A stretch of 64,000 bases of DNA from NCBI RefSeq assembly GCF_013520865.1, contig NZ_JACDXJ010000003.1, positions 186,001 through 250,000 on the forward strand. The letters run 5' to 3'. The first letter of the stretch is position 1, and each line of letters starts with the position of its first letter. Positions 18,666 through 60,769 of this stretch are shown here, in pieces. The notes beneath the pieces were generated by a model. It saw nothing but the letters and a program-made list of their open reading frames with translations, had not been told where the DNA came from and did no database searches. A program made the translations under genes and the position numbers. The stretch is from Microvirga mediterraneensis (GTDB taxonomy: Bacteria > Pseudomonadota > Alphaproteobacteria > Rhizobiales > Beijerinckiaceae).

Positions 18666-20564
18666 TTACGACCTTTCAGCGCTTACGACGGCGCGGTCCG
18701 GGGACCGATGGCGCTCGACCTCAACGTTGGTTTCCCCCGCTTTAGGGAATGAGCTTGCGACAAGTTCCTGCAACTCACCCTCGTCCAAAGTTTCCTTCTC
18801 CAGCAGGCGCCGGGCCGTCCGCTCCAGGACATCCCGCCTCTCCCGCAGGAGCGCGACAGTCTGCTCGAACACCTGGTCCACAATGGCCCGCACCTCGTCG
18901 TCAATCGCAGCCGCGGTCTCATCCGAGTAGGAGCGTTCGCGTGCGCCATTGCCGAGCGGGTTCGGGCTCAGGAATGATCGCTCATCCTTTTCCAGGGCAA
19001 CATTCCCGAGCTTTTCCGACATGCCATAGCGGGTCACCATCGAGCGGGCGATGTCAGTCACACGCACCAGGTCATCCGACGCGCCGGTGGAGAGATGGTT
19101 GAAGACGATCAGCTCGGCGGCGCGCCCGCCGAGCAGCACCGCCATCTTGTTCTCCAGCTCCTCGCGGGTCATCAGGAAGCGATCTTCGGTGGGCCGCTGG
19201 ATCGTGTAGCCCAGCGCCCCGACGCCGCGCGGGATGATCGACACCTTGTGCACCGGGTCCACGCCGGGGAGCGCCAGGGCGACGAGCGCATGGCCCATTT
19301 CATGGTACGCCACCACCTCGCGCTCCTTCGGGTTCAGGAGCCGGTTGCGTTTCTCCAACCCGGCGACGATGCGCTCGATGGCGTTGTTGAAGTCCGCCAT
19401 GGTCACGGCGTCCGCTCCGCGCCGGGTGGCCAAGAGCGCGGCCTCGTTCACGAGGTTGGCCAGATCCGCACCTGTGAAGCCAGGGGTGAGCGCCGCCACC
19501 TTTTCGGCATCCACATCCGGGGCCAGCTTCGCCTTGCGCATGTGCACCTGGAGGATTTGGATGCGGCCCTTCTTGTCGGGCCGGTCCACCAGCACCTGGC
19601 GGTCGAAGCGCCCGGCGCGCAGCAGCGCCGGGTCCAGGATCTCGGGCCGGTTGGTGGCGCCGAGCAGCACCAGGCCGGTGCGGGAGTCGAAGCCATCGAG
19701 TTCGACAAGAAGCTGGTTGAGCGTTTGCTCCTTCTCGTCATGGCCTCCGGCCAGGCCGCCCATGCCGCGGGCGCGGCCAAGGGCGTCGAGCTCGTCGATG
19801 AAGATGATGGCCGGCGCCTTTTCGCGGGCCTGCTGGAACAGGTCGCGCACACGCGCGGCACCGACGCCGACGAACATCTCGACGAACTCCGAGCCGGAGA
19901 TGGAGAAGAACGGCACCTTCGCTTCGCCGGCCACCGCCTTGGCGAGCAGCGTCTTGCCGGTGCCCGGCGGGCCGACCAGGAGCACGCCCTTCGGCATGCG
20001 CCCGCCAAGCCGGCCGTACTGCTCCGGGTTTCTGAGGAACTCGACGACCTCCCGCAACTCGTCCTTGGCCTCATCGACACCGGCCACGTCCTCGAAGCGT
20101 ACGCCGGTGTCGGCTTCGACATAGACCTTGGCCTTGCTCTTGCCGATCTGCATCAGGCCTCCGCCAAGGCCGCCCGCCCCAGCCATGCGGCGCATGAGGA
20201 AGGCCCAAATCCCGAAGAAGATCAGGACAGGCAGAACCCAGGAGAGGATGTCGCGGAACAGCGTGCTTTCGATCTGTCCAGTATAGGTGACGCCGTATTG
20301 CTGCAGCTCTTGGGCAAAGTCCGGGTCAACGCGGGTCGTCGCGAACCGCGTCTGGCCGCCAGGCAGAGGCTCCTTCAGCCGCCCCTGGATGAAGCGGTCG
20401 GAGATGCCGATCTCGGCCACCTTGCCGCCCCGGAGCAGCTCCTGGAACTGGCTGTAGGGAATAGGCGCGATCTGCTGGGCCGTGCTGAAGACGTACTGGA
20501 TCAGCAGGATGCCCAGGATGGCGGCGATCCAGTACCAGGTGTTGAACTGCTTGCTCTTGTCCAT
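18666..20564 (-). CDS. ftsH: ATP-dependent zinc metalloprotease FtsH
   Basis: A 632-residue membrane protease that degrades misfolded or regulatory proteins. TM1 is near residues 9-27 and TM2 near 100-120, enclosing a periplasmic domain. The AAA domain has Walker [14 protein letters not shown], Walker [12 protein letters not shown] and second region of homology [20 protein letters not shown]. The zinc site is HEMGHALV. The start at 20564 (MDKSKQFN) was chosen over the ATG 27 bases upstream because it gives the family N terminus. An accessory FtsH copy is a core member of the tLST/LHR heat-resistance island, and the context here fits. Candidate EcfG promoter about 50 bp upstream. Confidence 0.95.
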
Positions 20565-20615
20565 CGAGGTTCCCCACAGCGGCTCGACCACCAGGACGAG
20601 CCCTCAGACCGGGTC

Positions 20616-20640
20616 AACGTGAGGCAGCAATCCTGGTTCG
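20616..20640 (-). promoter_or_regulatory. EcfG-like promoter candidate for ftsH
   Basis: Minus strand CGAAC, 16 bases, CGTT; one mismatch to the general stress response consensus. The -10 end is 52 bp from the chosen ftsH start. Confidence 0.4.
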
Positions 20641-20896
20641 ATCAGAGCCATGGCGGTGGTACCTTACTGGCCAATCACATCCATTGGTCGTGTTCGATTG
20701 TTCTTCTTCTCTCCATCCGAAACAGACGGGGTGGTCGTAGATAATTGTGCGACGTCGGGTGGACAGCTTCATTGGATGGCTATCCGGAGCCCTGGCCCAA
20801 ATTGCCAACGCCGGTCCCTTCCATCATCCTGCAAGGGACCGACCGGATGGCTGGCCATCATGGTTAAAGGTCCGACAGGACCGTAGGGAGCTAGGG

Positions 20897-21283
20897 ATGA
20901 CGTCAGAAGAGATGCATGCGCGTTTGCCCGTCATCCGAACAATTGCCATGCCCTCGGACACCAACCCTGCTGGAGACATCTTCGGCGGTTGGCTGATGTC
21001 GCAGATGGACCTTGCCGCCGGCAATGCGGCTGCACGGCGCGCTCGGGGACGCTGCGTAACCGTTGCAGTGGATGGAATGGTATTTCACACTCCAGTGCAT
21101 GTCGGTGACGAGGTCTCAGTTTACGCCGACCTGATTTCCACGGGCCGCACCTCCATGAAGTTCCAGGTTGAAGCTTGGCGCCGCTCCCGTGATGGCGACG
21201 AACAGATCAAGGTGACGGAAGCGGTCTTCACGTTTGTCGCCATCGACAGTGGCTCCCGCCCTCGCCCACTGCCCCCGAGTTGA
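20897..21283 (+). CDS. Acyl-CoA thioesterase, YciA-like hot-dog fold
   Basis: 128 residues forming one hot-dog domain. The conserved segment PSDTNPAGDIFGGWLMSQMD (about residues 19-38) carries the active-site Asn/Asp and Gly-Gly of YciA/acyl-CoA hydrolases, followed by VTVAVDGMVFHTPVHVGDEV. It hydrolyses acyl-CoA to free CoA and fatty acid in the cytoplasm. The start at 20897 has the ribosome site TAGGGAGC just upstream. Divergent from ftsH. Confidence 0.88.
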   Translation: MTSEEMHARLPVIRTIAMPSDTNPAGDIFGGWLMSQMDLAAGNAAARRARGRCVTVAVDGMVFHTPVHVGDEVSVYADLISTGRTSMKFQVEAWRRSRDGDEQIKVTEAVFTFVAIDSGSRPRPLPPS

Positions 21284-22003: not shown

Positions 22004-22555
22004 GTGCTTCAAGTTGAAGCAAGAGCAGTTGGGTAAGGACCCAGAAGCCCACCATGTAACTTTGCAGCCACTCACACGGGCTGGGGTGGGTTGCGATCGG
22101 CAACGGGATCATCGTGCCTGGCCGGCCATCGAAAGCGAGTTTGCAGGCCGTTTCGGTCACAGCCAACTCGGCTAGCACCGCCTTGGCCTGCTCGCATCCG
22201 TCGGCTTGAACCAGGGGCTGAACTTGAGACGCGATGGCTGACCCTCACCCGAGCCAGCTTTGCTCATCGGCTCCCGAATCGATTCATCAAAGTTCCAAGC
22301 GAATTACTGGTGCACGGTGTTGGATCTGAATTTGAGCGCACGCCGACGACCAAGTTGCACATACAATGCTGGAGTTCCGCCACGAGCACCTTCGTGCTGC
22401 GGCTGCCGACCCTAAAGGTACCAGCGATGCGCTGAACACGGCCATCAACACCCAGGACGGGCAGATCATGTCGTCGGTCTAACACATCTTCTTATCCAGT
22501 GATCTTCCTCTGCCCCCGCGCGTTCTTCGGTGCACGGTGGTCGGGAGATGCGGTC
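22004..22555. other. Gap between the DUF1127 terminator and the antiporter gene
   Basis: About 550 bp. Short frames on both strands show no recognisable family and no good ribosome site. The promoter of the antiporter gene should be here but none stands out. Confidence 0.45.
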
Positions 22556-24334
22556 ATGGCCGAGCGGCTGTTGTTCGAGATGCTGGTGATTGTGGTGGCG
22601 TCGTTCGCTGTGGTGACGACCCTGGTTCGCCTCCGCTTCTCGCCTGTCACTGGTTACCTGCTCGCCGGCGTTCTGATCGGGCCGCATGGGCTGGGGCTCC
22701 TGCCCGCGACGGAGGGAGTGCGGTTTCTCGGCGAGCTCGGGGTCGTGCTCCTGATGTTTATCATCGGGCTGGAATTCTCCCTGCCACGCATGTTGGCGGC
22801 GCGCTCGCTCGTATTCGGCATGGGCAGCCTGCAGGTTGCTCTCACGACACTGGCTGGTGGCATCCTGGCGTGGGTGGCGGGCCTCGGCTGGGGCGCCGGC
22901 GTTCTGATTGGCGGGGCCATTGCCATGTCGTCCACGGCCATCGCGGCCAAGCAGCTCTCGGACCAGGAGGAGCTGAACACCCAACACGGACGCCTGGCTC
23001 TGGGCATTCTCCTGTTCCAGGATCTCGCCACGCTGCCGTTCCTCATCCTCACCGACGCCTTGAGCGGGCGCGGCGAGGCAAGTCCTGCCTTGGCGGCAGG
23101 CCGGGCTGTTCTTGCGGTGGTCATCTTTCTGGCCATTGCCCTGCTGGCGCGACGCACCTTGGCTCGGTTCTTCGAGATGCTGGCGCGCACCCGTTCGAAC
23201 GAGGTCTTCCTGCTCGGCGTCCTCTCGCTCGTCCTGCTGTCCGCCTTCGGGGCCGAGGAGGTTGGGTTGTCCCTGCCGATAGGGGCCTTCCTGGTCGGCA
23301 TGATCATCGGCGAGAGCGACTTCCGGCATCAGGTCGAGGACGAGATCCGCCCGTTCCGGGACGTGCTCCTAGGTCTGTTCTTCATCACGGTGGGCATGGC
23401 CGTCGATCCGCGGACGATCCTCACCCATCCGCTCTCCGTCATCGTCGCCCTGGCAGCCCTTGTTGGTTTGAAGGCGGCCATCGTGTTTGGCGCGGCCCGG
23501 GCCGCCGGCTGGACGGCACCCGCGGCGTTCCGGGGCGGCGTGGTGTTGGCGCATGGCGGCGAGTTCGCCCTTCTGTTGATGACGCAGGCGCTCGCGATTG
23601 GGCTTTTACCGGCGGGGACAGGCCAAGTGGTTCTGGTCACCGTCGTGCTCAGCATGGCGCTGGCCCCGCTTCTGATCCAATGGAATGGGCGCTTGGCCCG
23701 CGGGGTCGGCCTTGGTTCGCCGCAGGCCTTGCCCCACCCGGACGAAGCCGCCCTGGCGGAAGTCGGCGACACCCTGTCCGGGCATGTCATCCTGTGCGGA
23801 TGCGGACGGGTCGGATGCTTGGTCGCCAGGGTACTGGACATCGGCGGCATCCCATATGTTGCCGTCGAGCATGACATGGATCGATTGAGGAAGGCACGCG
23901 CGCAGGGGCATCACGTCGTCTTCGGGGACGCAACCCGGCCCGTCATACTCCGCGCCGCAGGCTTCGACCGGGCCAAGGCCGTGGTGGCCACGTTGGACAG
24001 CCCGTCCGCCTTGGAGCGGCTGGTCCACCGGGTCCGGCACCTGAACCATGCGCTGCCAGTCATCGTCAGCACCACCGACACGACATCAGTGCGAAGGCTG
24101 CTGGAGGTCGGCGCGACCCACGCCCTGCCGGAGAACCTTGCCGCCGGGCTCGGCCTCGCCGAGCACCTGCTCCGGGCTCTTGGAATGCCGCCGCAGGATG
24201 TCGAAGACCGCATCAACCAAGTTCGGACCCTTCTCAGCCCCGCCCCGGTGGACAATGCCGGCCTGAACGTCGCTTCCCGCCCAAAAGATGAGACACTCAG
24301 CGAGGTGCGTTCGGGCCTGCCGGAAAATTCATGA
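22556..24334 (+). CDS. KefB-like monovalent cation:proton antiporter (CPA2) with TrkA-N domain
   Basis: 592 residues. The N-terminal two thirds holds about 12 membrane segments (for example MLVIVVASFAVVTTLVRL, GVVLLMFIIGLEFSL with the CPA2 core GLEF). The cytoplasmic RCK/TrkA-N domain starts with HVILCGCGRVGCLVARVL near residue 420, a nucleotide-binding Rossmann fold. Such proteins exchange K+ or Na+ for H+ and protect against electrophile or pH stress. A KefB homologue is a regular member of the tLST/LHR island. The start at 22556 (MAERLLFEM) follows GGGAGATGCGGTC. Confidence 0.92.
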   Translation: MAERLLFEMLVIVVASFAVVTTLVRLRFSPVTGYLLAGVLIGPHGLGLLPATEGVRFLGELGVVLLMFIIGLEFSLPRMLAARSLVFGMGSLQVALTTLAGGILAWVAGLGWGAGVLIGGAIAMSSTAIAAKQLSDQEELNTQHGRLALGILLFQDLATLPFLILTDALSGRGEASPALAAGRAVLAVVIFLAIALLARRTLARFFEMLARTRSNEVFLLGVLSLVLLSAFGAEEVGLSLPIGAFLVGMIIGESDFRHQVEDEIRPFRDVLLGLFFITVGMAVDPRTILTHPLSVIVALAALVGLKAAIVFGAARAAGWTAPAAFRGGVVLAHGGEFALLLMTQALAIGLLPAGTGQVVLVTVVLSMALAPLLIQWNGRLARGVGLGSPQALPHPDEAALAEVGDTLSGHVILCGCGRVGCLVARVLDIGGIPYVAVEHDMDRLRKARAQGHHVVFGDATRPVILRAAGFDRAKAVVATLDSPSALERLVHRVRHLNHALPVIVSTTDTTSVRRLLEVGATHALPENLAAGLGLAEHLLRALGMPPQDVEDRINQVRTLLSPAPVDNAGLNVASRPKDETLSEVRSGLPENS

Positions 24335-25011: not shown

Positions 25012-25031
25012 GAGCCCGTGATACGTGGGCT
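25012..25031 (+). repeat. Small hairpin upstream of the first universal stress protein gene
   Basis: GAGCCC, 8 bases, GGGCTC, ending 26 bases before the ATG at 25058; possibly part of the leader. Confidence 0.35.
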
Positions 25032-25057
25032 CGCCTCTACGGCAATGGACGGCGCCC

Positions 25058-25876
25058 ATGGCGTTCAAGGATGTTCTTGTCCTGCTTGATGAGAGATCCA
25101 ACCAAGCCAAGCAGTATGCAGCTTTGCTCGCCACTGCGTTCGACGCGCATGTCACGGCTGCCGCTTTGGCTCCGGATCCAGGGACAAGCGGTGGCTTCCT
25201 CGATGACGGCGCCGCGTTCCTCATACCCGCCCTCGAGGAAGCGAGACACGCAATCCTTCAGATGTTGGAAGAGTTCGCAACCTCTTTCCGACGTTCCGGA
25301 GCCAGAGTGGAAACGGAGGTGTTCACCGAGGCATCTGGTACGGCCGATCGCGCGCTCGGTCCGCTGGCCCGCAACTTCGACTTGATCGTTGCCGAGCAGC
25401 CCGACCCCGACCTCCCCGACGAGAGGCGAAGCATGATCGAGGCCGTCCTGTTCGCCTCCGGGCGCCCCGTGCTTGTGGTCCCTTCCAAGGAGGGCGTCTT
25501 GGGCAAACTGGAAAACGTGCTGGTTGCCTGGGACGGGAGCGCGACGGCCGCAAGGGCTGTGGGCGACGCCATTCCGTTCCTTGCACGCGCCCGGCGGGTT
25601 GAGCTCGTCACAGCGGTTGATGCCGTCGACAAAACCGCCGGATCCAGTCCGCGGATTGTTCGTCATTTGGCCCGCCATGGGGTAGAGGCAGCGTTTCACA
25701 GGCTTCCGATCGCGGATGATGTTGCGAGCACCCTTCTCTCGCATGCCTCTCACGCCGCGGCTGACCTGATGGTGATGGGCGGCTATGGGCATTCTCGCTT
25801 GCGCGAACGGATGCTTGGCGGAGCCACCCGAGGCGTTCTTGAAGCGATGACGTTGCCGGTATTGATGGCGCATTGA
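25058..25876 (+). CDS. Tandem-domain universal stress protein 1
   Basis: 272 residues made of two UspA-type halves. The first half begins FKDVLVLLDERSNQ; the second begins LENVLVAWDGSATAARAVGDA (about residue 148, written in part) and ends with the ATP-binding loop GGYGHSRLRERMLGGATRG. The first half lacks a clear ATP loop, as is usual in this type. Cytoplasmic stress protein of poorly known mechanism. The paralogue at 26133 has the same length and order. The start at 25058 was chosen because it opens with the Usp strand. Confidence 0.88.
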   Translation: MAFKDVLVLLDERSNQAKQYAALLATAFDAHVTAAALAPDPGTSGGFLDDGAAFLIPALEEARHAILQMLEEFATSFRRSGARVETEVFTEASGTADRALGPLARNFDLIVAEQPDPDLPDERRSMIEAVLFASGRPVLVVPSKEGVLGKLENVLVAWDGSATAARAVGDAIPFLARARRVELVTAVDAVDKTAGSSPRIVRHLARHGVEAAFHRLPIADDVASTLLSHASHAAADLMVMGGYGHSRLRERMLGGATRGVLEAMTLPVLMAH

Positions 25877-25944: not shown

Positions 25945-26132
25945 GATCGGGTGCCCCTCTGCCATAGACCCGAGAAGGTAGCAATAGGGCTAATGCGGGA
26001 GGCGGAAATGGCCGCCGGCACTCCGAACCTCGTTGAGCAGTCGTGCCGGCAGCTCCGAGGGGCGTGTCGATGGGAACTGATGAAGCGATACAATCATAAT
26101 CATATACCGACACGATGGGAGGGGACGCTCCA

Positions 26133-26951
26133 ATGGCCATCAAAGACATCGTCGTTGTGCTCGACACCAGTTCCAGGACAGTGGGCCCGTATGCGACTTC
26201 GCTGGCGGCCCTGTTTAAGGCGCACCTTACCGCCACTATGCTCGTGCACGACCCGATCACGAGCGTCACCTGGCCGGAAGCATCCATCCCCCTGCTGACA
26301 TCGGTGATTGAAGCCACACGGGAGGAGGCGCGTCAGACCCTTGAGGCGTTCGCCACAACGAGCCGGGCGCTCGGCATTACGGCCGAGACGGAGGTCATCG
26401 AGGTCACGCTTGGCTTGCCAGGCCGAGCGCTTGGTCCTCTGGCACGCCGCTTCGATCTTGCGGTGATCGAACAGCCGAACCCGGACGCACAAAACGACCG
26501 GGAGATCATGGCGGAATCGGTTCTGTTCGAGTCCGGCCGGCCTGCCCTGATTGTCCCATATGTGGCGCTCACGCCGTTCCGGCTCGAGACAGTGTTGATC
26601 GCCTGGGACGGCAGCGCCACGGCGGCACGTGCGCTTGGCGATGCGATGCCGTTTCTGGCCCGAGCCAAACAGGTCGAGATTCTCACGGTCGCTGACGAGC
26701 CGAGCGAGGCTGAAGCCTCCGGCCAGCAGATGGTCCGCCACCTGGAGCGCCACGGCGTCGCTGCGCAGTTCCGCGGGCTTCCTAGGGCCGGCGGTATTGC
26801 GAGCACGCTGCTGTCGCACGCGTTTGACGCACAAGCCGATCTGATGGTGATGGGAGGCTATGGGCACTCCCGCATGCGCGAATTCATCCTGGGCGGGGCC
26901 ACTCGTGAGGTGCTCGAGACCATGACCCTGCCGGTACTGATGTCACATTGA
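26133..26951 (+). CDS. Tandem-domain universal stress protein 2
   Basis: 272 residues, a paralogue of the protein at 25058 with identical layout: IKDIVVVLDTSSRT at the start, second domain from LETVLIAWDGSATAARALGD, and ATP loop GGYGHSRMREFILGGATRE near the end. Ribosome site GGGAGGGG. The 256-bp spacer from the first copy contains a strong stem-loop, so expression may be separate. The pair suggests an old tandem duplication followed by divergence. Confidence 0.88.
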   Translation: MAIKDIVVVLDTSSRTVGPYATSLAALFKAHLTATMLVHDPITSVTWPEASIPLLTSVIEATREEARQTLEAFATTSRALGITAETEVIEVTLGLPGRALGPLARRFDLAVIEQPNPDAQNDREIMAESVLFESGRPALIVPYVALTPFRLETVLIAWDGSATAARALGDAMPFLARAKQVEILTVADEPSEAEASGQQMVRHLERHGVAAQFRGLPRAGGIASTLLSHAFDAQADLMVMGGYGHSRMREFILGGATREVLETMTLPVLMSH

Positions 26952-27044: not shown

Positions 27045-27121
27045 GCCACTCGCCTTAGACCGTCTTCTTGGAGCCGATCGCTCAGGTTTTGCGATTTCCG
27101 CGTTCCACAGGGGAGAAGCCT

Positions 27122-28486
27122 ATGACGGATGTCACCCGTAGCCCCTCGCGTGAGGTGCGTGCCGACCGGCAGCCAACCAGGATTCCCTTGTTCCTGTTCG
27201 CGACCGGCATCGAGAACAGCTATCCCACCATCCAGAACGGCCGGGTGCGCCGCGACCAGATGGAGGAGTGCGGCCATTATTTCTTCAGGGAGCGGGATTT
27301 CGACCTCCTCGACGAGCTCGGTATCCGCTTCCTGCGCTATGGCCCGCCCTTGTACCAGACCTTCCTCGGCCAGGGCCGGTACGCTTGGGAGTTCACCGAC
27401 CTGACGTTCGCCCGGCTGAAGGAGCGCGACATCGTTCCCATCGTCGACCTGTGCCATTTCGGTGTGCCGGACTGGATCGGCAACTTCCAGAACCCCGATT
27501 TCCCAGCGCTGTTTGCGGAATACGCCGGCGCCTTCGCGCGCCGCTTCCCGTGGGTCCAGCTCTACACCCCCGTCAACGAGATGTTCATCTGCGCCACGTT
27601 CTCGGCGGCGACCGGGTACTGGAACGAGCAGCTGAAAAGCGACCATGGCTTCGTCACCGCCCTCAAGCACCTCGTCAAGGCGAACGTGCTGGCCATGCAC
27701 GCCATCCTGGAGGAGCGGCCCGACGCGATCTTCATCCAGAGCGAGTCGACCGAGTATTTCCACGCCGAACACCCGCAGGCGATCAAGCCCGCGGAGATCC
27801 AGAACGCCCGGCGGTTCCTCTCGCTCGACCTGAACTACGGCCGCCCGGTCAATTCGGAGATGCACGAGTTCCTGCTCGATAACGGCATGACGCGGGAGGA
27901 ATACCACTTCTTTCTCGACAACACCCTGCGCCACCACTGCATCATGGGCAACGACTTCTACCACACCAACGAGCACCGGGTGGACCCCGGCGGGCAGATC
28001 CGGCCCGCCGGCGAGGTGTTCGGCTATGACGAGATCACGCGCCAGTACCACGACCGCTATGGCCTGCCGGTCATGCACACCGAGACCAACTTCGACCAGG
28101 GCCCGGAGGGAGACGAGGCGGTCGACTGGCTGTGGAAGCAGTGGGCCAACGTCCTACGCGGGCGCAACAACCGTGTGCCCATCGTCGGCTTCACATGGTA
28201 CTCGCTCACCGACCAGATCGACTGGGACGTCGCTCTTCGCGAGCAGCGGGGCCGGGTGAACCCGCGCGGGCTGTACGACCTCGCCCGCAACGTCCGGCCC
28301 GTCGGGGAAGCCTACAAGAAACTTCTGTCCCAGTGGCGCGAGGTGTTGCCGACGCAGAGCGTCTGCCTGTTCGTGCCGGTGGTGTTGCCGAGCGAGTACG
28401 ACGAACCCATGGCGGTGCGACGGCGCGAGGGATGGCGTCGATACCTCCGCCACGAAATGAGGGCAAAGCCCAAGGTCAGGAATTAG
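27122..28486 (+). CDS. Family 1-like glycoside hydrolase (atypical)
   Basis: 454 residues forming a GH1-type TIM barrel. The acid/base region reads LYTPVNEMFICATFSA (about residue 160) where classical beta-glucosidases have T-x-NEP, and the nucleophile region reads PVMHTETNFDQG (about residue 320) where the classical motif is I/V-TENG; both Glu residues are present. The C-terminal VGFTWYSLTDQIDW matches the W-SL-DN-EW region. No signal peptide, so cytoplasmic. Substrate unknown. Its place in a stress cluster is odd; release of glucose from a stress glycoside is only a guess. The start at 27122 replaces an upstream ATG at 27068 lacking a ribosome site. Confidence 0.82.
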   Translation: MTDVTRSPSREVRADRQPTRIPLFLFATGIENSYPTIQNGRVRRDQMEECGHYFFRERDFDLLDELGIRFLRYGPPLYQTFLGQGRYAWEFTDLTFARLKERDIVPIVDLCHFGVPDWIGNFQNPDFPALFAEYAGAFARRFPWVQLYTPVNEMFICATFSAATGYWNEQLKSDHGFVTALKHLVKANVLAMHAILEERPDAIFIQSESTEYFHAEHPQAIKPAEIQNARRFLSLDLNYGRPVNSEMHEFLLDNGMTREEYHFFLDNTLRHHCIMGNDFYHTNEHRVDPGGQIRPAGEVFGYDEITRQYHDRYGLPVMHTETNFDQGPEGDEAVDWLWKQWANVLRGRNNRVPIVGFTWYSLTDQIDWDVALREQRGRVNPRGLYDLARNVRPVGEAYKKLLSQWREVLPTQSVCLFVPVVLPSEYDEPMAVRRREGWRRYLRHEMRAKPKVRN

Positions 28487-31063: not shown

Positions 31064-31199
31064 GGTGATCTAACGCCGGCCGCCCCGTGCGGTGCCGCGG
31101 CTCGACCAGCCAGAGCGAATTTGAAGCGATCATGAACCAAGGCCAATCCTGGATTGTTAGTTTGATGTTCGACTTGGTTCAAGCGGAACGGGGATGATC

Positions 31200-31988
31200 A
31201 TGCGCCCATATGAGCAAAACCAACACGCCTATGGCACCGGCTTTGCCCGGACGGCGGCTCAGGTCGATCAAGGCCTGCGCGCCTTCATGCTCGGCGTCTA
31301 CAACAACATGGTCCTGGGCCTTGCCATCTCGGCCCTGGTCGCGCTTGGCATCAACATGCTGGCCACCACGAGCGATCCGTCGCAAGCGGTCGCCCGGATG
31401 GGCGGTATCGGCCTGACCCAGTTCGGGGCGACCCTGTATGGCTCGCCCCTGATGTGGGTCGTGGCGCTGGCGCCTTTGGCTTTCATCTTCTTCTTCTCGT
31501 TCCGGATGGACCGGATGTCGGCGGCTTCTGCCCGCACCACCTTCTTCGCCTTCGCGGCGGTGATGGGTGCTTCGCTCTCGACGCTTCTCATCCGCTACAC
31601 CGGTGCGAGCGTCGTGCAGGTGTTCTTCATCACGGCGGCGGCCTTCGGCTCGCTGTCCCTGTGGGGCTACACCACGAACCGCAGCCTGTCGGGCATGGGC
31701 TCGTTCCTGATGATGGGCCTCGTCGGCCTGATCCTGGCCTCGATCGTGAACATCTTCGTGGCATCGAGCATGCTGCAGTTCGGCATCTCCGTGATCGGCG
31801 TGCTGATCTTCGCCGGCCTCACGGCCTACGATACGCAGAAGCTGAAGGAGATGTACCTGTACGGCAACTTCGATACCGAAGCCGCCGCCAAGGTCTCCGT
31901 GTTCGGCGCCCTGACGCTGTACCTGGACTTCATCAACATGTTCCAGTTCCTGCTGGCTCTCGTGGGTAACCGCAACGAGAACGGGTAG
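31200..31988 (+). CDS. Bax inhibitor-1/YccA family membrane protein
   Basis: 262 residues with about seven membrane segments. Family features are the N-terminal GLRAFMLGVYNNMVLGLAI and the last segments FAGLTAYDTQKLKEMY with the conserved Asp of the BI-1 proton/calcium-leak pore. Bacterial homologues associate with FtsH and with calcium or proton leak, which suits the presence of ftsH in this window. The second ATG at 31200 is preferred because CGGGG lies six bases before it. PdhA follows 44 bp downstream. Confidence 0.92.
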   Translation: MRPYEQNQHAYGTGFARTAAQVDQGLRAFMLGVYNNMVLGLAISALVALGINMLATTSDPSQAVARMGGIGLTQFGATLYGSPLMWVVALAPLAFIFFFSFRMDRMSAASARTTFFAFAAVMGASLSTLLIRYTGASVVQVFFITAAAFGSLSLWGYTTNRSLSGMGSFLMMGLVGLILASIVNIFVASSMLQFGISVIGVLIFAGLTAYDTQKLKEMYLYGNFDTEAAAKVSVFGALTLYLDFINMFQFLLALVGNRNENG

Positions 31989-33712: not shown

Positions 33713-33738
33713 GGAACATGCATGAGCCGCTTTGCGTT
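33713..33738 (+). promoter_or_regulatory. Perfect EcfG-type promoter upstream of the rhomboid gene
   Basis: GGAAC, 17 bases, CGTT, an exact match to the alphaproteobacterial general stress response consensus. The -10 end is only 11 bases before the rhomboid ATG at 33750, which implies a very short leader or leaderless mRNA. Confidence 0.55.
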
Positions 33739-33749
33739 CGGTCTCAACT

Positions 33750-34505
33750 ATGGTCCCCGTTCGCACCTCTGTACCGACCCGCTATCCTCCTTGGGGGACA
33801 TACGGCCTGATCGCCGTCAACAGTTTCGTGTTCCTGTTCCAGACGACGCTGCCGCCGGGAGCAGAGGAGGTTTTCATCTATTTCTACGGTCTTGTGCCCG
33901 CCCGCTACACGGATCCGGGATGGGCCATGCAGATCGGGCTCCCACCGGATAATTACCTGCCGTTTTTGACAACCATGTTCCTGCACGGAGGCTGGCTGCA
34001 TCTCATCCTGAACATGTGGACGCTGTGGCTATTCGGCGGCGCCGTGGAGGACCGGCTAGGGCACGGGCGCTATCTCGCATTCTATCTCGCCTGCGGTCTG
34101 GCGGCTAGTTTTGCCCACGCCTTTGTTAATGCTGGGTCGACCATACCGGCTGTTGGAGCCTCGGGTGCGATCGCCGGCGTAACCGGAGCTTATGCGCGCT
34201 TGTTCCCACGCTCTTGGATTGTCCTGCTGGTTCCTATCTTCTTTATCCCGTTCTTCTTCGAGCTGCCTGCGCTCCTCTACATTGCTTTCTGGTTTTTCAT
34301 GCAGGTTTTGCAGGGCACGGCTGGGTTGATGATGCCCGAGGCTGGTGGCGTTGCTTGGTGGGCTCATATCGGCGGTTTCGTGGCTGGCATTCTGCTGGCT
34401 CCGGTGATCCACCGACCGCGTCCGAGCTACCGTCACTTCTATCCCGATGAAGGCGTGTTAGGCTATGGGCCGGCTGGTCAACGGTCGCTCCCACGGAGGT
34501 TCTGA
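33750..34505 (+). CDS. Rhomboid family intramembrane serine protease
   Basis: 251 residues with six or seven membrane segments. The catalytic Ser lies in GASGAIAGV (about residue 136), the His in WAHIGGFVAG (about 208), and the L1 motif HGGWLHLILNMWTLWLFG is typical. It cleaves membrane proteins within the bilayer. The downstream SDH-type protease begins 3 bp after its stop, so the two are one operon. Two proteases of the membrane behind a stress-type promoter suggest membrane protein quality control (inference). Confidence 0.92.
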   Translation: MVPVRTSVPTRYPPWGTYGLIAVNSFVFLFQTTLPPGAEEVFIYFYGLVPARYTDPGWAMQIGLPPDNYLPFLTTMFLHGGWLHLILNMWTLWLFGGAVEDRLGHGRYLAFYLACGLAASFAHAFVNAGSTIPAVGASGAIAGVTGAYARLFPRSWIVLLVPIFFIPFFFELPALLYIAFWFFMQVLQGTAGLMMPEAGGVAWWAHIGGFVAGILLAPVIHRPRPSYRHFYPDEGVLGYGPAGQRSLPRRF

Positions 34506-34508: not shown

Positions 34509-35345
34509 ATGAGCGCCATCGACCTCTTCTGGATTTTTATCGCTCTGGTTTCCCTGCAGCCTGTGATCAGTCAGCGGATGCTGGGAGCGATGCGTCAGCG
34601 CAAGATCGCCGAGATCGAGAAGAAGCGGGGCTCGCGTGTGATCCTTCTGGTGCATCGTCAGGAAACGATGCGCCTGCTTGGCTTCCCACTGATGCGCTAC
34701 ATTGACGTGAACGACGCCGAGCAGGTCATGCGGGCAATCCATATGACGGATCCCGATACACCTCTCGATCTCGTGCTTCATACCCCTGGCGGCCTTGTTG
34801 TGGCCTCGCTCCAGATCGCGCGCGCACTCAAGCTCCATAAGGCCAAGACAACTGTGTTCGTTCCGCACCTTGCCATGTCAGGCGGGACACTGATCGCGCT
34901 TGCCGCGGACGAGATCGTCATGTGCCCGCACGCAGTGCTCAGTCCCGTCGACCCACAGATCAATGGGTTCCCGGCGGCCTCCATCATCCGCGCCGCAGAG
35001 GATAAGCCGATCGCCGAAGTTGACGACCAGACCTTGATGCTGGCTGACGTCGGTCGCAAGGCAGTTGCTCAAATCAGAGCAGCTGTGAGCGAACTCCTGC
35101 AGGAGCATCTTCCAAAGGAACAGGCCGACCAGATCGCCGACCGCCTGAGCCGGGGCGAGTGGACGCACGATTACCCGATTGCGCCCACCGAAGCGCAATC
35201 CCTGGGACTTAAGGTGAGCACGGACCTGCCCGGCAACGTGCTGGAGCTGATGGGTCTTTATCCTCAGCCCGTCCGCACGCAGCAGACCGTTGAATACCTC
35301 CCACGTCAGAGATCCGGTGGGGACCGGCCCCCGTTGGCTGGTTAG
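34509..35345 (+). CDS. SDH-family Clp-fold serine protease, membrane anchored
   Basis: 278 residues of the PF01972 (SDH_sah) type, related to ClpP/SppA. An N-terminal anchor (IDLFWIFIALVSLQPVI) precedes a Clp fold with DLVLHTPGGLVVASLQIA (about 95) and VPHLAMSGGTLIALAADEIVM (about 120, in part) holding the presumed catalytic Ser in AMSGG and the SPVDPQI region. It is transcribed with the rhomboid gene. Substrate unknown; degradation of membrane or membrane-proximal peptides is inferred from the pairing. Confidence 0.88.
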   Translation: MSAIDLFWIFIALVSLQPVISQRMLGAMRQRKIAEIEKKRGSRVILLVHRQETMRLLGFPLMRYIDVNDAEQVMRAIHMTDPDTPLDLVLHTPGGLVVASLQIARALKLHKAKTTVFVPHLAMSGGTLIALAADEIVMCPHAVLSPVDPQINGFPAASIIRAAEDKPIAEVDDQTLMLADVGRKAVAQIRAAVSELLQEHLPKEQADQIADRLSRGEWTHDYPIAPTEAQSLGLKVSTDLPGNVLELMGLYPQPVRTQQTVEYLPRQRSGGDRPPLAG

Positions 35346-35483: not shown

Positions 35484-37907
<2,424 letters not shown>

Positions 37908-38908: not shown

Positions 38909-38938
38909 CATCATGCTTTGAACAACGGAGGTGAGAGC

Positions 38939-39874: not shown

Positions 39875-42745
<2,871 letters not shown>

Positions 42746-44177: not shown

Positions 44178-44783
44178 ATGGCAGAACTGATTGTGGTTGG
44201 CTTCGACGATCCGAACGAAGCGGATCGCGCCCTGACCGAACTGGCGCGCCTGCAGAAAGAATACCTCGTCGACCTGGAGGACGCGGTGGTGGCGATCCGC
44301 GGTCCCGACGGCAAGCTGCGGCTGAAGCAGAGCGTCGACTTGGTGGGTGTCGGCGCCGCCTCAGGCAGCCTCTGGGGCGCCATGTGGGGCTCGCTCGTCG
44401 GCCTGCTGTTCTTGAACCCCCTGCTCGGGATGGCGACCGGGGCCGCCTTGGGGGCCGGAGCCGGAGCGCTGTCTGGCAAGCTCGCCGACTACGGCATCGA
44501 CGACGAGTTCATCCGCTCGATTGGCGAAACCCTCCAGCCCAACAGCTCGGCACTGTTCGTCCTCCTCCGCAAGGTGCAGCCGGAGAAGGTGCTGGAGGAG
44601 CTGAAGCGATTCCGCGGACGGGTTCTGCGCTCCTCACTCTCGCCTGATCAGGAGGCCCGGCTACAGGCTGCCCTGTCAGGCTCCAACGTGTCGATGCCCG
44701 GCAGCACCAGCACCGCGCCTGAAACCACCAATCCGACGTCCAGTGACACAAGCGCCACCCCTGTCCAAGGAGCCGCATCATGA
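44178..44783 (+). CDS. DUF1269 family protein
   Basis: 201 residues. The N-terminal half [24 protein letters not shown] and the glycine-rich hydrophobic hairpin [33 protein letters not shown] (in part; about 60-95) fit DUF1269, a membrane-associated family. The C terminus is a disordered Ser/Thr-rich tail. Its stop overlaps the groES start (ATGA), so the proteins are translationally coupled. Ribosome site GAGAGGAGG. Confidence 0.88.
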
Positions 44784-45067
44784 GGTTCAGACCGCTCCAT
44801 GACCGTGTCGTGATCCGTCGTGTCGAGGCTGAGGAGAAGACGGCCGGCGGCATCATCATCCCGGACACTGCCAAGGAAAAGCCCCAGCAGGGAGAGGTCG
44901 TCGCCGTTGGCCCAGGCGCCCGCGACGAGAGCGGCAAGGTTGCCCCCCTCGACGTCAAGGCCGGCGATCGCGTCCTGTTCGGCAAGTGGTCCGGCACCGA
45001 GGTGCGCATCGATGGCGAGGACCTCCTCATCATGAAGGAGTCCGACATCCTAGGCGTGGTCGGATGA
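44780..45067 (+). CDS. groES: Co-chaperonin GroES
   Basis: 95 residues, the full GroES length. [20 protein letters not shown] opens the fold, the mobile loop contains [10 protein letters not shown], and [20 protein letters not shown] is conserved. It caps the GroEL chamber. The ATG overlaps the DUF1269 stop codon by 4 bases; no CIRCE repeat is seen upstream of the gene. Confidence 0.97.
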
Positions 45068-46750
<1,683 letters not shown>

Positions 46751-46759
46751 GCGCCTGCG

Positions 46760-46845: not shown

Positions 46846-47385
46846 ATGGCCGCATTGGCTATTCCCATCACGGGTGAGGATCATCTCCAGGGTCGCGAGG
46901 GCGCCCCGCTCAAGCTCGTGGAATACGGCAACTACGAGTGCCGGCGTTGCGGGGCGGCCCACCCCATCGTCAAGGCGATCTTAGAGCATTTCGGACCGGA
47001 GATCGTCTTTGTGTACCGGCACTTCGCCCTTCTCGAGGGCTATCCGAATGCCGAGCGGGCGGCGGAAGTCGCGGAACTTGCTGCGGCGCATGGCCGGTTC
47101 TGGGAAATGCATGACCTCCTGTACGCCAATCAGGAGCATTTGACCGGATTGCTCCCGGTCACTCTGGCGCGCCAATTGGCTCTGCCCGAGAACGAGATCC
47201 AGGAGGCGCTGATCGGGAAGCGCTTCGCCGTCAAAATCCACACTGACTTCACCGGGGGCTTGCGGAGCGGCGTGACCAGCACGCCGACGTTCTTCATCAA
47301 CGGCCTTGGATACGAGGGCCCCGCCGAATTGGAGCCGCTCACCGCTGCCATCGAAGCTGAGCGATCTGGAAGCGGATCGTCGTGA
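46846..47385 (+). CDS. Thioredoxin-fold DsbA-family protein, cytoplasmic
   Basis: 179 residues with no signal peptide. The active-site CxxC is in NYECRRCGAAHPIVKAI (about residues 32-35), the cis-Pro region reads GVTSTPTFFINGLGYEG near 146, and the helical insert fits DsbA-type rather than simple thioredoxins. Probably a cytoplasmic disulfide oxidoreductase for stress-damaged proteins. The tLST island also holds a thioredoxin-like gene. Ribosome site AAAGGAG; 95 bp after groEL. Confidence 0.85.
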   Translation: MAALAIPITGEDHLQGREGAPLKLVEYGNYECRRCGAAHPIVKAILEHFGPEIVFVYRHFALLEGYPNAERAAEVAELAAAHGRFWEMHDLLYANQEHLTGLLPVTLARQLALPENEIQEALIGKRFAVKIHTDFTGGLRSGVTSTPTFFINGLGYEGPAELEPLTAAIEAERSGSGSS

Positions 47386-51015: not shown

Positions 51016-51627
51016 TCAACCCTGGATCTTGTGCCTTGCCTCGAGAAGAAACTCCTGCGCCCTGGCAACCGAAGTGCCTGTGACGAAAGCCACCTGTTGG
51101 ATCGAGATGCCGTGGCGATCGTGCATGACCAAGATGCGGCGCGCCGGCTCTGACAGGGAGCCGGGCTGCCCCTCGACAGCGGCGATCATCTCGTCCGCGG
51201 ATGTGCGCGGATCGGGGATAACGTCCTCCCAGCTCTCGAAGTCGTCGGGCTGCCGCCATCCGGGTGCGGCACCACCATCACTGGGAGGCGCGTCCAGCGA
51301 AACGCGCACCAGATCTCCCGTGCCCTTTTGCTCGCTCACCAACCTGTCAGCGGTCCGATGCAACAGCCCAAACAGCCAAGCCTTGAGGTCGAGGGTTTCG
51401 GGTTTGCGCTGTCGCTCGTCCCAAGCCTTGAGCAGGACCTCGGCCACGAGGTCGTCGGGGCTGACTGATCCGGTGCCCAGATCACCGACGCAGACGTGAT
51501 AGGTGATCTCGTGTTCGGCGGCCTTGCGGAGTTCGGCAAGGTATGGCTCGACAAGGCGCCGGAACGCGTCCTTGTCTCCGGCCTTGATCTTCTGCCAATC
51601 CTGGGTGGTCGTTTGGGTGGCGGTCAT
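51016..51627 (-). CDS. ECF-like RNA polymerase sigma factor
   Basis: 203 residues. Region 2 is seen in DDLVAEVLLKAWDERQ and LDLKAWLFGLLHRTADRL (about 60-95); region 4 in EPARRILVMHDRHGISIQQVAFVTG (in part; about 160-185), separated by a long acidic linker. It is unlike EcfG itself, which has a shorter linker. The start at 51627 (MTATQTT) has AGGAG six bases upstream. No anti-sigma factor is adjacent. A palindrome lies 47 bp upstream and could be its operator or part of its promoter. Confidence 0.8.
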   Translation of the reverse strand: MTATQTTTQDWQKIKAGDKDAFRRLVEPYLAELRKAAEHEITYHVCVGDLGTGSVSPDDLVAEVLLKAWDERQRKPETLDLKAWLFGLLHRTADRLVSEQKGTGDLVRVSLDAPPSDGGAAPGWRQPDDFESWEDVIPDPRTSADEMIAAVEGQPGSLSEPARRILVMHDRHGISIQQVAFVTGTSVARAQEFLLEARHKIQG

Positions 51628-51902
51628 TGGCATCTCCTGGACTTTGAGCCAACACCAGGGTGATCGTTCCACGGGAAGGAATTTCCTTCCGGCGGGGTCC
51701 GGCGTTCTTCGAGCTTGTCGATTAGGAGGAGAGTCCTGTCATGGTCCTCGAGCGCCTCAAAACGCCGCCGGACCGCGCCGGCGAGCTGGTCGACTAGCAT
51801 GTCGCGGCTTCTGACGCTGCCGTTCGGCAAGGCACGGAGGATGGCGCCGCACGGGTCGGCAACGTCGGCATGGTCGCTCGTGCTCAGCTGCCAAAGCTCC
51901 AT
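51624..51902 (-). pseudogene. Degenerate hemerythrin-domain protein
   Basis: About 92 codons. The first part MELWQLSTSDHADVADP and VRSRDMLVDQLAGAVRRRFEALEDHD are clearly related to the start of the hemerythrin protein at 56218 (MEFWHLIANDHANIVS, VRSRDRLFDELDGELRRHIEAEED). Several metal-ligand positions (His of RRHIEAEED) are lost, and the rest of the domain is missing; the frame ends in unrelated sequence. No ribosome site. A truncated duplicate is the best explanation. Confidence 0.6.
51674..51690. promoter_or_regulatory. 17-bp palindrome upstream of the sigma factor gene
   Basis: GGAAGGAATTTCCTTCC, perfect 8-bp arms around one T, 47 bp upstream of the sigma factor start. Its compact form suits a repressor or activator site; it also could form a hairpin. 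Confidence 0.45.
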
Positions 51903-52181: not shown

Positions 52182-53165
52182 GTGGTAGCGCTTCTCGTGC
52201 TCGACCTCGGCGTCCTGCACTGGGAGGCGCGCGCCATCGGTGTCGGGGAGGCCCTGTGGCTGAGCCTCGGCTACCTCGTCCTCGCTCTCCTGTTTGCCGG
52301 CGGGGTGTACTGGTTCCTCGGCGGGCAGGCTAGCGTCGAGTTCCTGACCGGCTACTTCATCGAGAAGTCGCTCTCCATCGACAACATCTTCGTCTTCGTC
52401 CTGATCTTCTCCAACTTCGGGGTTCCCGCCGCCTACCAGCACCGGGTGCTGTTCTGGGGCGTGCTCGGCGCTCTGGCGCTCCGCGCCGTGCTCGTCTTCG
52501 TCGGCGTTCAGCTCCTCCATGCGTTCGCCTGGATGACGCTTGTTTTCGGCGCCTTTCTGGTCATCACCGGGATCCGAATGCTGTTCGCGGCCGAGGGGAC
52601 GCCGGACCTCCACAACAACACGGTCCTCAAGCTTCTCCGCCGTTTGCCGGTCACCGAGGACTACGAAGGAGCCACCTTTCTGGTCCGGCGCGACGGCGCG
52701 CTCTATGTGACGCCGCTGTTCCTCGTGCTGGTGATGGTCGAGTTCACCGACTTGGTGTTCGCGGTCGACCCCATCCCGGCGATCCTGGCGATCACGCAGG
52801 ACCCGTTCATCGTCTACACATCCAATGTGATGGCGATCCTCGGGCTGCGGGCGCTCTACTTCGCGCTCGCCGGGATCGTGAAGCGGTTCGTTTATCTTAA
52901 ATACGCGCTGTCGCTCATCCTCGTGCTGGTCGGCGCCAAGATGACGGTCAATCATCTCTACGGCGGCAAGGTCATTCCTACAGAGGCCGCGCTGCTCGTC
53001 ACGGCCATCCTGATTGGCGGCGCAATCGCCCTATCTCTCTTGCGCACGCGCGCGCAAGCCCGAAGACGAGGTCAGGCTGCCCACTGGCTGGGTGCCGGGC
53101 AGCAGGTCGCAACCCAGAGCCACGCCGGCGGCCGATCTGTCCGGCAGGCCCGAAAAACAGGGTGA
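52182..53165 (+). CDS. TerC family integral membrane protein
   Basis: 327 residues with eight or nine membrane segments. The family signatures are GYFIEKSLSIDNIFVFVLIF (about residues 57-76) with the Asp of the ion site, and MVEFTDLVFAVDPIPAILAI (about 186). TerC/Alx proteins move Mn2+ or Ca2+ and help tolerate stress. The protein begins at a GTG; in-frame sequence upstream reads on into a stop at 52161, so the N terminus is shorter than in most members. A basic, non-conserved C-terminal tail follows. Confidence 0.85.
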   Translation: MVALLVLDLGVLHWEARAIGVGEALWLSLGYLVLALLFAGGVYWFLGGQASVEFLTGYFIEKSLSIDNIFVFVLIFSNFGVPAAYQHRVLFWGVLGALALRAVLVFVGVQLLHAFAWMTLVFGAFLVITGIRMLFAAEGTPDLHNNTVLKLLRRLPVTEDYEGATFLVRRDGALYVTPLFLVLVMVEFTDLVFAVDPIPAILAITQDPFIVYTSNVMAILGLRALYFALAGIVKRFVYLKYALSLILVLVGAKMTVNHLYGGKVIPTEAALLVTAILIGGAIALSLLRTRAQARRRGQAAHWLGAGQQVATQSHAGGRSVRQARKTG

Positions 53166-58106: not shown

Positions 58107-59540
<1,434 letters not shown>

Positions 59541-59566
59541 TCCATCTCTGAAAGGAGGATACGAGA

Positions 59567-60175
59567 ATGGCCCGCAATCCCCTCACACCCTCCCGCACCG
59601 GGTTTGGCTTGCTGGGCGGGAACGATCCCTTCCTGTCGCTTCACCGCGAAATGAACCGCCTGTTCGACGACGTGCTGCGCGGTACGGGGTTGCCTGCCGC
59701 CGGAGGGCAAAGCCAAGGCGGTGTCGGCAACTTCGTCAACGCCAGCATGAATGTGTCGGAAACCGAGAACGAGATCCGCATCACCGCGGAACTGCCCGGC
59801 GTCACCGAACAGGACATCGATGTGAGCCTCGACGACGACGTGCTCACCATCCGGGGCGAGAAGAAGTTCGAGCAGAAGAACGAAAAGGAGAACTTCCATT
59901 TCGTCGAGCGCTCCTACGGCACCTTCCAACGCTCCGTGCGCCTGCCCTTCCCGATCAACCCGGAACAGGTGCAGGCGCACTTCGAGAACGGGGTGCTCAC
60001 CGTGACCCTGCCGAAGACGGCCCAGCAGGAGCGCTCCCGCCGCATTCAGGTTCAGGCCCGCGGGGCCGGAGGCCAGAGCGCCCAAGGTGGGCATGGCCCC
60101 ACAGAAGGCGGGAGCGGTCAGGGTGGACAGGGTGGCGGAACGCCGGACAACACCCCGGGCGGCGCCAGCACCTGA
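59567..60175 (+). CDS. Hsp20 chaperone, copy 2
   Basis: 202 residues. Same alpha-crystallin domain as copy 1 at 43445, with the canonical strand FENGVLTVTLPK (about residue 138). Ribosome site AAAGGAGG; 26 bp after degP, so co-transcribed. Only the Gly-rich C-terminal tail and silent positions of the first codons differ from copy 1. Holds unfolded proteins for later refolding. Confidence 0.95.
   Translation: MARNPLTPSRTGFGLLGGNDPFLSLHREMNRLFDDVLRGTGLPAAGGQSQGGVGNFVNASMNVSETENEIRITAELPGVTEQDIDVSLDDDVLTIRGEKKFEQKNEKENFHFVERSYGTFQRSVRLPFPINPEQVQAHFENGVLTVTLPKTAQQERSRRIQVQARGAGGQSAQGGHGPTEGGSGQGGQGGGTPDNTPGGAST
59588..60087 (+). repeat. 500-bp direct repeat, copy 2
   Basis: Partner of 43466-43965; differences are at 59999 and 60005, both A here and C in copy 1. 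The copies are 16122 bp apart in the same orientation, so recombination between them could delete the region from GroESL to DegP. Confidence 0.97.
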
Positions 60176-60193
60176 GCAGACGGACCGCGCATT

Positions 60194-60769
60194 ATGCAAC
60201 CATCTGAAGAGGGGGATCACCCCAGCACCAACGGGACCGATCCCCGCTCGCCGATGGGCACCGGCCGGGCCGCCGCGGCCGTGGACCACGCCCTGCGCGA
60301 AACCCGTGAGGCGTGGCCGGGCCTGAGCACCTACGAGCGCTTCGAGCAGGTCGTCTCGCTCGTCCTGACCGGCCTGATCAGCCTTGTGATCGCGGCGGCG
60401 CTCGTGAACCTGACGTTCCGCATCCTCATGTTGGTGCTGTTCGGGCTGCTCGACCCGGCCGAGACCGGCGTGTTCCAGGCGATCTTCGGCATGATCTTCA
60501 CCGTGCTGATCGCCCTGGAGTTCAACCACTCGATCATCGGCGTCCTGCACCGCAAGGAAAGCATCGTGCAGGTGCGCACGGTGGTGCTGATCGCCTTGTT
60601 GGCGCTCGTGCGCAAGTTCATCATCCTGGACGCGACCAAGACCGAGCCGCTCACCATCATCGGCTTGGCCGCGGCCATCCTGGCGCTGGGCTCAGTGCAC
60701 TGGCTTGTGCGCGACCAGGACCGGAAGGACGCCGCGGTTAGGGAGCATGAAGGCACAGCGGCAGAATAA
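60194..60769 (+). CDS. PsiE-like phosphate-starvation-inducible membrane protein
   Basis: 191 residues with four membrane segments (VSLVLTGLISLVIAAALVNL near 52, FQAIFGMIFTVLIALEFNHS near 95). The conserved FNHSIIG and RTVVLIALLALVRKFIILD regions fit the PsiE family. PsiE is found in the tLST/LHR island next to DegP, as here. Function unknown. 18 bp after the Hsp20 gene, so probably co-transcribed. Confidence 0.88.
   Translation: MQPSEEGDHPSTNGTDPRSPMGTGRAAAAVDHALRETREAWPGLSTYERFEQVVSLVLTGLISLVIAAALVNLTFRILMLVLFGLLDPAETGVFQAIFGMIFTVLIALEFNHSIIGVLHRKESIVQVRTVVLIALLALVRKFIILDATKTEPLTIIGLAAAILALGSVHWLVRDQDRKDAAVREHEGTAAE

Follow-up and report, generated by a model that had tools for sequence, protein, structure and literature searches.

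A Microvirga stress-gene supercluster that is probably a relative of the transmissible locus of stress tolerance

Is a scattered set of stress genes in an alphaproteobacterium a member, an ancestor or a relative of the transmissible locus of stress tolerance (tLST)? The question is raised by a 42-kb region (positions 18666-60769) in a 64,000-nucleotide stretch of the Microvirga mediterraneensis genome, hereafter the window, which corresponds to bases 186001-250000 of contig C3 (NZ_JACDXJ010000003.1; 256,001 bases). A sequence-only reading had listed FtsH, a KefB-like antiporter, Hsp20, ClpK, DegP and PsiE, together with Lon, GroESL, two universal stress proteins (Usp), rhomboid and SDH-type proteases, and SPW-repeat, DUF1269 and NDUFS4-like proteins, all of which are encoded according to Pfam and NCBIfam. 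The region is probably an accessory Microvirga stress supercluster on a RepC-bearing contig, which provides a second protein-quality-control set and in which a sister lineage of the tLST has merged with alphaproteobacterial plasmid modules. Directly seen are its gene content, the descent of the key genes, a RepC gene on the contig, the patchy distribution and changing order, and a parallel cluster on contig C2. It appears to be a relative of the tLST and not a member, because ClpK, FtsH and, with less support, KefB are tLST-like but DegP and the thioredoxin-fold protein differ and YfdX, HdeD, HtpX and Cls were not found; an ancestral status is not demonstrated.

The gene encoding ClpK, an AAA+ disaggregase recognized by Pfam, NCBIfam and trees (39872..42745, forward strand), lies in an open reading frame (ORF) that extends from 39788, and its true start is probably at 39872, where the alignment of upstream regions turns conserved, which gives 957 residues. 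The protein shows a CxxC near the N-terminus and keeps both Walker A motifs and two pore-loop motifs of tLST ClpK. The main ClpK tree has 46 rows and uses three ClpB-like rows as its outgroup, in a sample rich in alphaproteobacteria; outside this class it draws on plasmid records, two Pseudomonas loci and three loci out of a phylum sample of 398 genomes. It was hand-thinned of near-duplicates under 13 prefixes (G025, L087, G009_C90, G041, G046, G042, G019, G571, G273, G411, G309, G1351 and L090), most of which are present in an earlier 48-row tree. All trees were drawn midpoint, and those of DegP, PsiE, Hsp20, NDUFS4 and Lon are quick trees. A Microvirga ClpK clade (support 100/98), into which G082 and G588 from other genera also fall, has as its sister a group formed by G526, the classical tLST and a clade of compact alphaproteobacterial islands (100/95; 99/96). 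The 48-row tree agrees, and Paracoccus bogoriensis, shown only there, groups with the classical tLST. The suggestion that the region is an ancestor of the compact island is not borne out, as most Microvirga ClpK form a sister group to the clade of classical and compact alphaproteobacterial sequences and do not branch at a basal position inside it.

FtsH (18666..20591, reverse strand; Pfam M41) groups with tLST and alphaproteobacterial FtsH and apart from two copies on contig C1, its nearest relative being the FtsH of a Phenylobacterium zucineum plasmid. The active site HEMGH was found in 22 of the 22 rows of this island clade and HEAGH in both C1 copies collected; the sixth M41 match of the genome was left out of the set. 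The KefB/KefC-like (CPA2) K+/H+ antiporter with a TrkA_N domain (22499..24334, forward strand; Pfam) falls with tLST and alphaproteobacterial KefB (91/87), apart from two paralogues of the host. From these trees, ClpK and FtsH belong to tLST lineages and not to the ordinary vertical copies of the host chromosome, and so, with less support, may KefB. For two other supposed core members the relationship with the tLST did not hold. The Do-family protease DegP (58107..59540, forward strand; NCBIfam TIGR02037) is present, but the tLST DegP joins the host copy C1:2939097, and the close relatives of the window DegP are found only in Microvirga; a tLST-type DegP was rejected here on the basis of this separate clade. 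Similarly, a thioredoxin-fold protein is encoded at 46846..47385 (forward strand), but it is a DsbA-like Thioredoxin_4 protein (PF13462) and its identification as Trx-GI was rejected. The PsiE tree is ruled by long branches and includes no paralogues of the host, and the Hsp20 tree is too weak to settle descent.

The tLST of E. coli plasmid NZ_CP128580 shares with the window ClpK (72% identity), FtsH (67%, also with HEMGH), KefB (41%), PsiE (38%) and Hsp20. However, its DNA aligns with the window over no more than 2.4 kb of clpK and 1.3 kb of ftsH, at 76% identity, which is below the value of >80% DNA identity among copies that was applied to tLST membership. YfdX (PscA/PscB, YfdX1/2) and HdeD of the E. 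coli island show no Pfam match in the 70 window ORFs covered by the scan and no tblastn match of at least 55 bits on C3; Pfam scan and tblastn likewise gave no HtpX or Cls for the window, and Trx-GI has no match on C3. The E. coli island extends over ~15-19 kb, compared with 42 kb here, and its hsp20-clpK-...-kefB-psiE-degP order and spacing are not kept. In relation to E. coli, the window has Lon, GroESL, Usp, TerC, NDUFS4-like, rhomboid and SDH-type proteins as extras.

Distribution within the genus is patchy. Near full-length matches with at least 68% identity (in fragments in G015) place ClpK in 17 of the 48 Microvirga genomes. At E <=1e-200, and with the own genome included at each rank, it was found in 16 of 298 genomes of the family, 12 of 397 of the order, 3 of 385 of the class and 6 of 398 of the phylum. 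Among 19 Microvirga ClpK loci, 11 show PsiE, eight accessory Lon, five DegP, four FtsH, four NDUFS4-like and two KefB, and eight are devoid of PsiE, Lon, FtsH and KefB altogether; the stretches span 18-100 kb (the whole contig for the own genome; G015 left out), so that the counts in relatives are lower bounds. Gene order differs among these relatives. The possibility that the region is core chromosome of the genus was rejected, as ClpK is patchy and the gene order reshuffled; the synteny comparison found no conserved core order.

The host genome (5.35 Mb in eight contigs) also has a second cluster at ~113-157 kb of C2, which contains BrkB, FtsH, Hsp20, a sigma factor, Usp, SPW, NDUFS4-like, GroESL, a Trx-GI-like protein that is homologous to Trx-GI, MarC, Lon, Hsp20, a ClpB-like protein and Bax1-I. 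It is a paralogous stress cluster with the ClpB-like protein in place of ClpK, also on a RepC-bearing contig. Because RepC was found on each, C2 and C3 look like secondary replicons. Both kinds of cluster stand in a single stretch in G044 (~64 kb) and G011 (~78 kb). The genome has four GroEL copies (two on C1, one on C2, one on C3), three Lon copies (C1, C2 and C3) and six M41 matches, and one copy of each lies inside the same 42 kb, which we count as beyond chance. The window Lon has 84% identity with its C2 counterpart and 47% with that of C1.

To compare wider content, 35 window proteins were used in tblastn, excluding some small ORFs, a response regulator and left-flank genes; Hsp20 and Usp paralogues were counted separately, and a disaggregase match was counted even where it was ClpB. 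Matches were 23 in G044, 22 in G011 and 11 in G046, 16 in the own C2 (80 kb), 16 in the P. zucineum HLK1 plasmid (74 kb), 14 in an Azospirillum brasilense plasmid (40 kb), 11, 10 and nine in the islands of Agrobacterium, Shinella and Paracoccus yeei, respectively, and seven in the E. coli tLST. As controls, the part of C3 to the left of the window (186 kb) gave four matches, and two other Microvirga plasmid regions gave one and none. The scattered content is closer to the Phenylobacterium and Azospirillum plasmid stress clusters and to the own C2 than to the E. coli tLST.

The P. zucineum plasmid (NC_011143) shares with the window an Hsp20-lon pair (Lon 69%), a HEMGH FtsH (75%), GroESL, a GH1-like protein (69%), NDUFS4-like, TerC, Bax1-I, ZIP and a sigma factor, scattered over ~70 kb; however, it has DnaK, GrpE and ClpB in place of ClpK, YfdX and TrxC are present, and the rhomboid/SDH pair and PsiE were not found in its 74 kb. 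Seventeen plasmid-borne heat-shock chaperones, nine of them Hsp20, have been described in this species (Luo et al. 2008, PMC2529317); the main text of that paper has no mention of FtsH, and its passages on the chaperones do not describe a mobile island. The A. brasilense plasmid (NZ_CP059451) shows disaggregase, NDUFS4-like, Hsp20 and DUF1269 genes in the same order as the window, as well as PsiE, Usp, GroESL, DegP, DsbA-like and sigma factor genes, but ClpB, DnaK and GrpE stand for ClpK, one hypothetical gene lies between ClpB and the NDUFS4-like gene, and FtsH and Lon were not found in 40 kb. Compared by description only, the tLST-like alphaproteobacterial clusters of ClpH/ClpG2 type in passages of Kamal et al. 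(2021, PMC8290217), including Methylobacterium CCH7-A2, are also centred on ClpG_GI relatives.

The compact alphaproteobacterial tLST islands share partner genes with the window. The 26 non-Microvirga ClpK loci, found by ClpK alone, contain FtsH and PsiE (15 each), NDUFS4-like and KefB-like genes (14 each) and the rhomboid/SDH pair (13); the 12 without the NDUFS4-like gene are G082, G209, G245, G588, G526, G674, G370, G604, G522, G1337, G1329 and G1116. The fullest compact form was found in G623, G052, G932, G792 and Agrobacterium plasmid CP129669, with the order HtpX-DegP-PsiE-Hsp20-Hsp20-Hsp20 in one arm and FtsH-ClpK-HdeD-hypothetical-NDUFS4-like-rhomboid-SDH protease-Trx-KefB in the opposite arm; in the Agrobacterium annotation, FtsH is preceded by MarR and ClpK is followed by a sigma-70 factor. 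The plasmids of Shinella (NZ_CP086612) and P. yeei (NZ_CP020447) show a compact island with neither HtpX nor DegP among the listed rows, and with YfdX in P. yeei, and in Paracoccus bogoriensis (L007) the island order varies. These three plasmid islands of Agrobacterium, Shinella and P. yeei were found via the SDH-type protease and are not independent evidence for its presence.

Islands of Agrobacterium, Shinella, P. yeei and Hyphomicrobiales share with the window ClpK (74%), FtsH (67-68%), NDUFS4-like (41-42%), rhomboid (49-52%), SDH-type protease (63-66%), KefB (39-41%), PsiE (51-52%) and Hsp20. Unlike the window, they have a divergent layout of ~16 kb with MarR, sigma-70, HdeD and TrxC, in Agrobacterium also with HtpX and another DegP, and their ClpK and FtsH form a clade of their own; only 2.3 kb of DNA is alignable between G623 and the window, at 79%. 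The window shows the compact content (NDUFS4-like, rhomboid and SDH-type proteins with ClpK and FtsH) and lacks both the divergent layout and a ClpK of the compact clade. G932 and G623, which belong to different orders, have 23.6 kb in common at 97.4% DNA identity, which points to a recent transfer of the compact island between orders; the Microvirga region itself might also be transferred. G674, of the same order as M. mediterraneensis, has a classical tLST with 92% DNA identity to that of E. coli over 15.3 kb. Its contig C33 (L198, L199) is nearly classical, with ClpK 97% and FtsH 100% identical to E. coli. In contig C101 of G273 (L176, 1282-3362), an alphaproteobacterial-type ClpK island is joined to classical YfdX1/YfdX2/HspGI at 93% DNA identity to E. 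coli, a mix that suggests that tLST types have recombined or that sequences were wrongly joined during assembly of this draft contig. A finished Acinetobacter plasmid shows an NDUFS4-like gene beside classical tLST genes; this gene was not found in the matching slot of the E. coli tLST, which has another gene there.

SDH-type protease matches were found in 16 of 72,556 plasmid records (E 1e-20), and four of the ten alphaproteobacterial records were inspected; one of them, Roseomonas NZ_CP147884, shows no ClpK in the stretch inspected. Relatives of the window SDH-type protease, 54% identical, are also on six Thermus plasmids (records H71-H76). Relatives of the window Lon, 59-70% identical, are found in plasmid records H127-H141 of Phenylobacterium, Azospirillum, Azoarcus, Cupriavidus, Paraburkholderia and others; the next records listed are ~45-48% identical.

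In passages of two studies of the tLST (PMC8290217, PMC8407380), ClpG_GI is described as a disaggregase that works autonomously, and KefB and the heat-shock genes of the island as protective against heat and chlorine. If these functions carry over to the window locus, as we infer, the Hsp20 proteins would hold unfolding proteins, ClpK, as an autonomous AAA+ disaggregase, would extract proteins from aggregates, and the co-directional GroES and GroEL would refold them. The accessory Lon, the island FtsH, rhomboid, the SDH-type protease and DegP would degrade proteins that cannot be salvaged, and the KefB-like antiporter, Usp, DsbA-like and membrane proteins may protect ion balance, redox state and the envelope. 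The region could be induced and take part in survival of heat or oxidants. As for descent, ClpK, FtsH, probably KefB, and the NDUFS4-like, rhomboid and SDH-type partners would derive from a tLST-sister lineage, merged with modules that occur in stress clusters on plasmids of other alphaproteobacteria.

Several observations weigh against the supercluster proposed here. No site was found in the window for a strict RpoH consensus or CIRCE. The rhomboid/SDH pair is found in one of the 19 Microvirga ClpK loci, that of the window, and the NDUFS4-like gene in four, so these partners are atypical of the genus. Motif inspection did not locate the catalytic residues of the SDH-type protease. The window ClpK scores 1563 bits with the NCBIfam ClpK model NF033606, with a cut-off of 1900, and ClpK of G010, of the same genus, forms a separate third clade. 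The ends of contig C3 show no overlap and a closed plasmid is not demonstrated; the G044 cluster is on a single 3.8-Mb contig, in a genome with no RepC, so a plasmid location is not general. Finally, the 42 kb includes genes without a clear stress role, which encode GH1, DUF3616, an E1 dehydrogenase and an isocitrate/isopropylmalate-type dehydrogenase.

Such interspersed non-stress genes, and the different gene order among relatives, would be expected if unrelated stress genes had gathered by chance on an accessory-rich plasmid; however, many of the same families co-occur in three orders and on the own C2, as against four of 35 in the 186 kb of C3, and we regard a chance gathering as highly improbable. 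Two other explanations start from the parts shared with the compact islands. Were the region an ancestral, uncompacted tLST from which the compact islands condensed, then ClpK, FtsH, KefB, NDUFS4-like, rhomboid and SDH-type protease would be common to both, as they are, and the neighbours of the classical tLST ClpK in the sampled tree are alphaproteobacterial ClpK. This is nevertheless unlikely: Microvirga ClpK is a sister clade and not a paraphyletic base, both other lineages have compact arrangements, and the window yielded no HdeD, YfdX, HtpX, Cls or DegP of tLST type. The converse, in which a compact alphaproteobacterial island entered Microvirga and was then broken by rearrangement and insertions, would account for the rhomboid-SDH pair and ClpK-NDUFS4 being still adjacent and for the presence of that pair in one of 19 Microvirga loci, as though acquired. 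Furthermore, the window has a 557-bp direct repeat with 96.8% identity (43415-43971 and 59540-60093) in two hsp20 genes 16 kb apart, which could promote rearrangement; the duplication behind it is likely recent. A degenerate island is unlikely, however, with Microvirga ClpK and FtsH outside the compact clade, a window FtsH nearest to the P. zucineum plasmid copy, and DegP and Trx of different lineages.

Beyond the accessory supercluster of Microvirga, we put forward tentatively, and with some doubt, that alphaproteobacterial plasmids carry a recurrent and undescribed class of superclusters, with interchangeable ClpK or ClpB beside NDUFS4-like, Hsp20 and DUF1269 genes, and that this was the pool where the tLST was assembled and mobilised. 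If so, the NDUFS4-like protein with the SFPASDPP tail would be a conserved but so far unrecognised component of the machinery. Passages of Wang et al. (2021) describe the tLST in all proteobacterial groups except Epsilonproteobacteria, and parts of Kamal et al. (2021, PMC8290217) state that the data did not suffice to indicate its source. In this sample rich in alphaproteobacteria, the ClpK sequences closest to that of the classical island come from alphaproteobacteria, the compact form moves between orders and sits on plasmids, and the larger superclusters share its parts; together this gives a concrete place to seek the tLST origin. Three candidate partner genes are raised: NDUFS4-like, rhomboid and SDH-type protease. 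The main text of PMC8290217, figure labels apart, has neither "rhomboid" nor "NADH", and no description of these partners or of the Microvirga supercluster was found in the text, figures and supplements apart, of the open-licence literature consulted.

Genes from clpK to the DsbA-like gene (39872-47385) are co-directional. ClpK is followed by the NDUFS4-like gene (42791..43405, +; PF04800), hsp20 (43445..44038, +; near-identical to the copy at 59567), the DUF1269 gene (44178..44783, +), groES (44780..45067, +), groEL (45116..46750, +) and the DsbA-like gene, all by Pfam. They likely form an operon, because they share one direction, the gaps are of 139 bases at most and the start of groES overlaps the end of the DUF1269 gene. 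Upstream are lon (35484..37907, -; Pfam), with the third Hsp20-like gene of the window just upstream of it (37920..38423, -; Pfam HSP20), a pair also found in relatives, a small ORF (38642..38908, +) and an SPW-repeat membrane protein gene (38918..39349, +; Pfam). The rhomboid (33732..34505, +; Pfam) and ClpP-like SDH-type protease (34509..35345, +; PF01972) genes are paired as in the compact alphaproteobacterial islands. Catalytic motifs are kept in FtsH (HExxH), Lon (DGPSAG), DegP (GNSG) and rhomboid (GASG). DegP is followed by the second hsp20 copy (59567..60175, +; Pfam, repeat) and psiE (60194..60769, +; Pfam).

A loose RpoH pattern was found once in the window, compared with 1.38 per 64 kb elsewhere on C3, and the alignment of clpK upstream regions was too poor for a footprint. 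With an EcfG general-stress promoter consensus, a loose search gave 15 sites in the window versus 6.5 expected, a number reached by one of 100 shuffles. The pattern GGAAC-N16/17-CGTT was found three times in the window, once in 186 kb of C3, and three times each in 80 kb of C2 and 100 kb of G044. Candidate sites are at 33713(+), 51934(-) and 57140(-), the last with a G044 counterpart before the same hemerythrin/HTH gene. As the sites are too few, EcfG regulation of the region is not claimed.

A motif close to EAS-ESFPASDPPAW stands near the end of the NDUFS4-like protein (43340) and in the small ORF before clpK (38687). It was also seen at L307 12961, at L237 17827 and in NDUFS4-like genes of compact islands; among its carriers are an Azospirillum GrpE, close to the start, and a Paraburkholderia ClpK-like protein, in the tail. 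A stricter pattern gave no match in 79 ClpB/ClpK loci (1.35 Mb), most of them from other phyla, and no literature match was found for the motif strings. Plasmid matches occur in other proteins too, such as ribose-phosphate pyrophosphokinase.

ORF scores from a codon model of five genes lacked the strength needed for gene calling, and the remaining genes were assigned by Pfam. They include two Usp genes (25025..25876 and 26115..26951, both +; PF00582), a GH1-like gene that recurs in related clusters (27068..28486, +; 93% in G044), and genes of Bax inhibitor-1 family (31194..31988, +; PF01027) and TerC family (52182..53165, +) membrane proteins. An ECF-like sigma factor gene (51016..51672, -) shows weak Pfam and NCBIfam matches below cut-off and has a homologue in the C2 cluster. 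Downstream of psiE are genes of a VTT-domain membrane protein (60796..61482, -) and a BrkB family membrane protein (62155..63333, -), the latter linked in G044, G011, G006 and the own C2. The left flank (53-14800) contains a LysR regulator, FAD oxidoreductases, an ABC transporter set, DUF1612/HTH_13, IS66-like and pRiA4b ORF-3-like genes, with an IS66 domain match by profile search at 10410-11792, which look like a catabolic module with mobile-element remnants.

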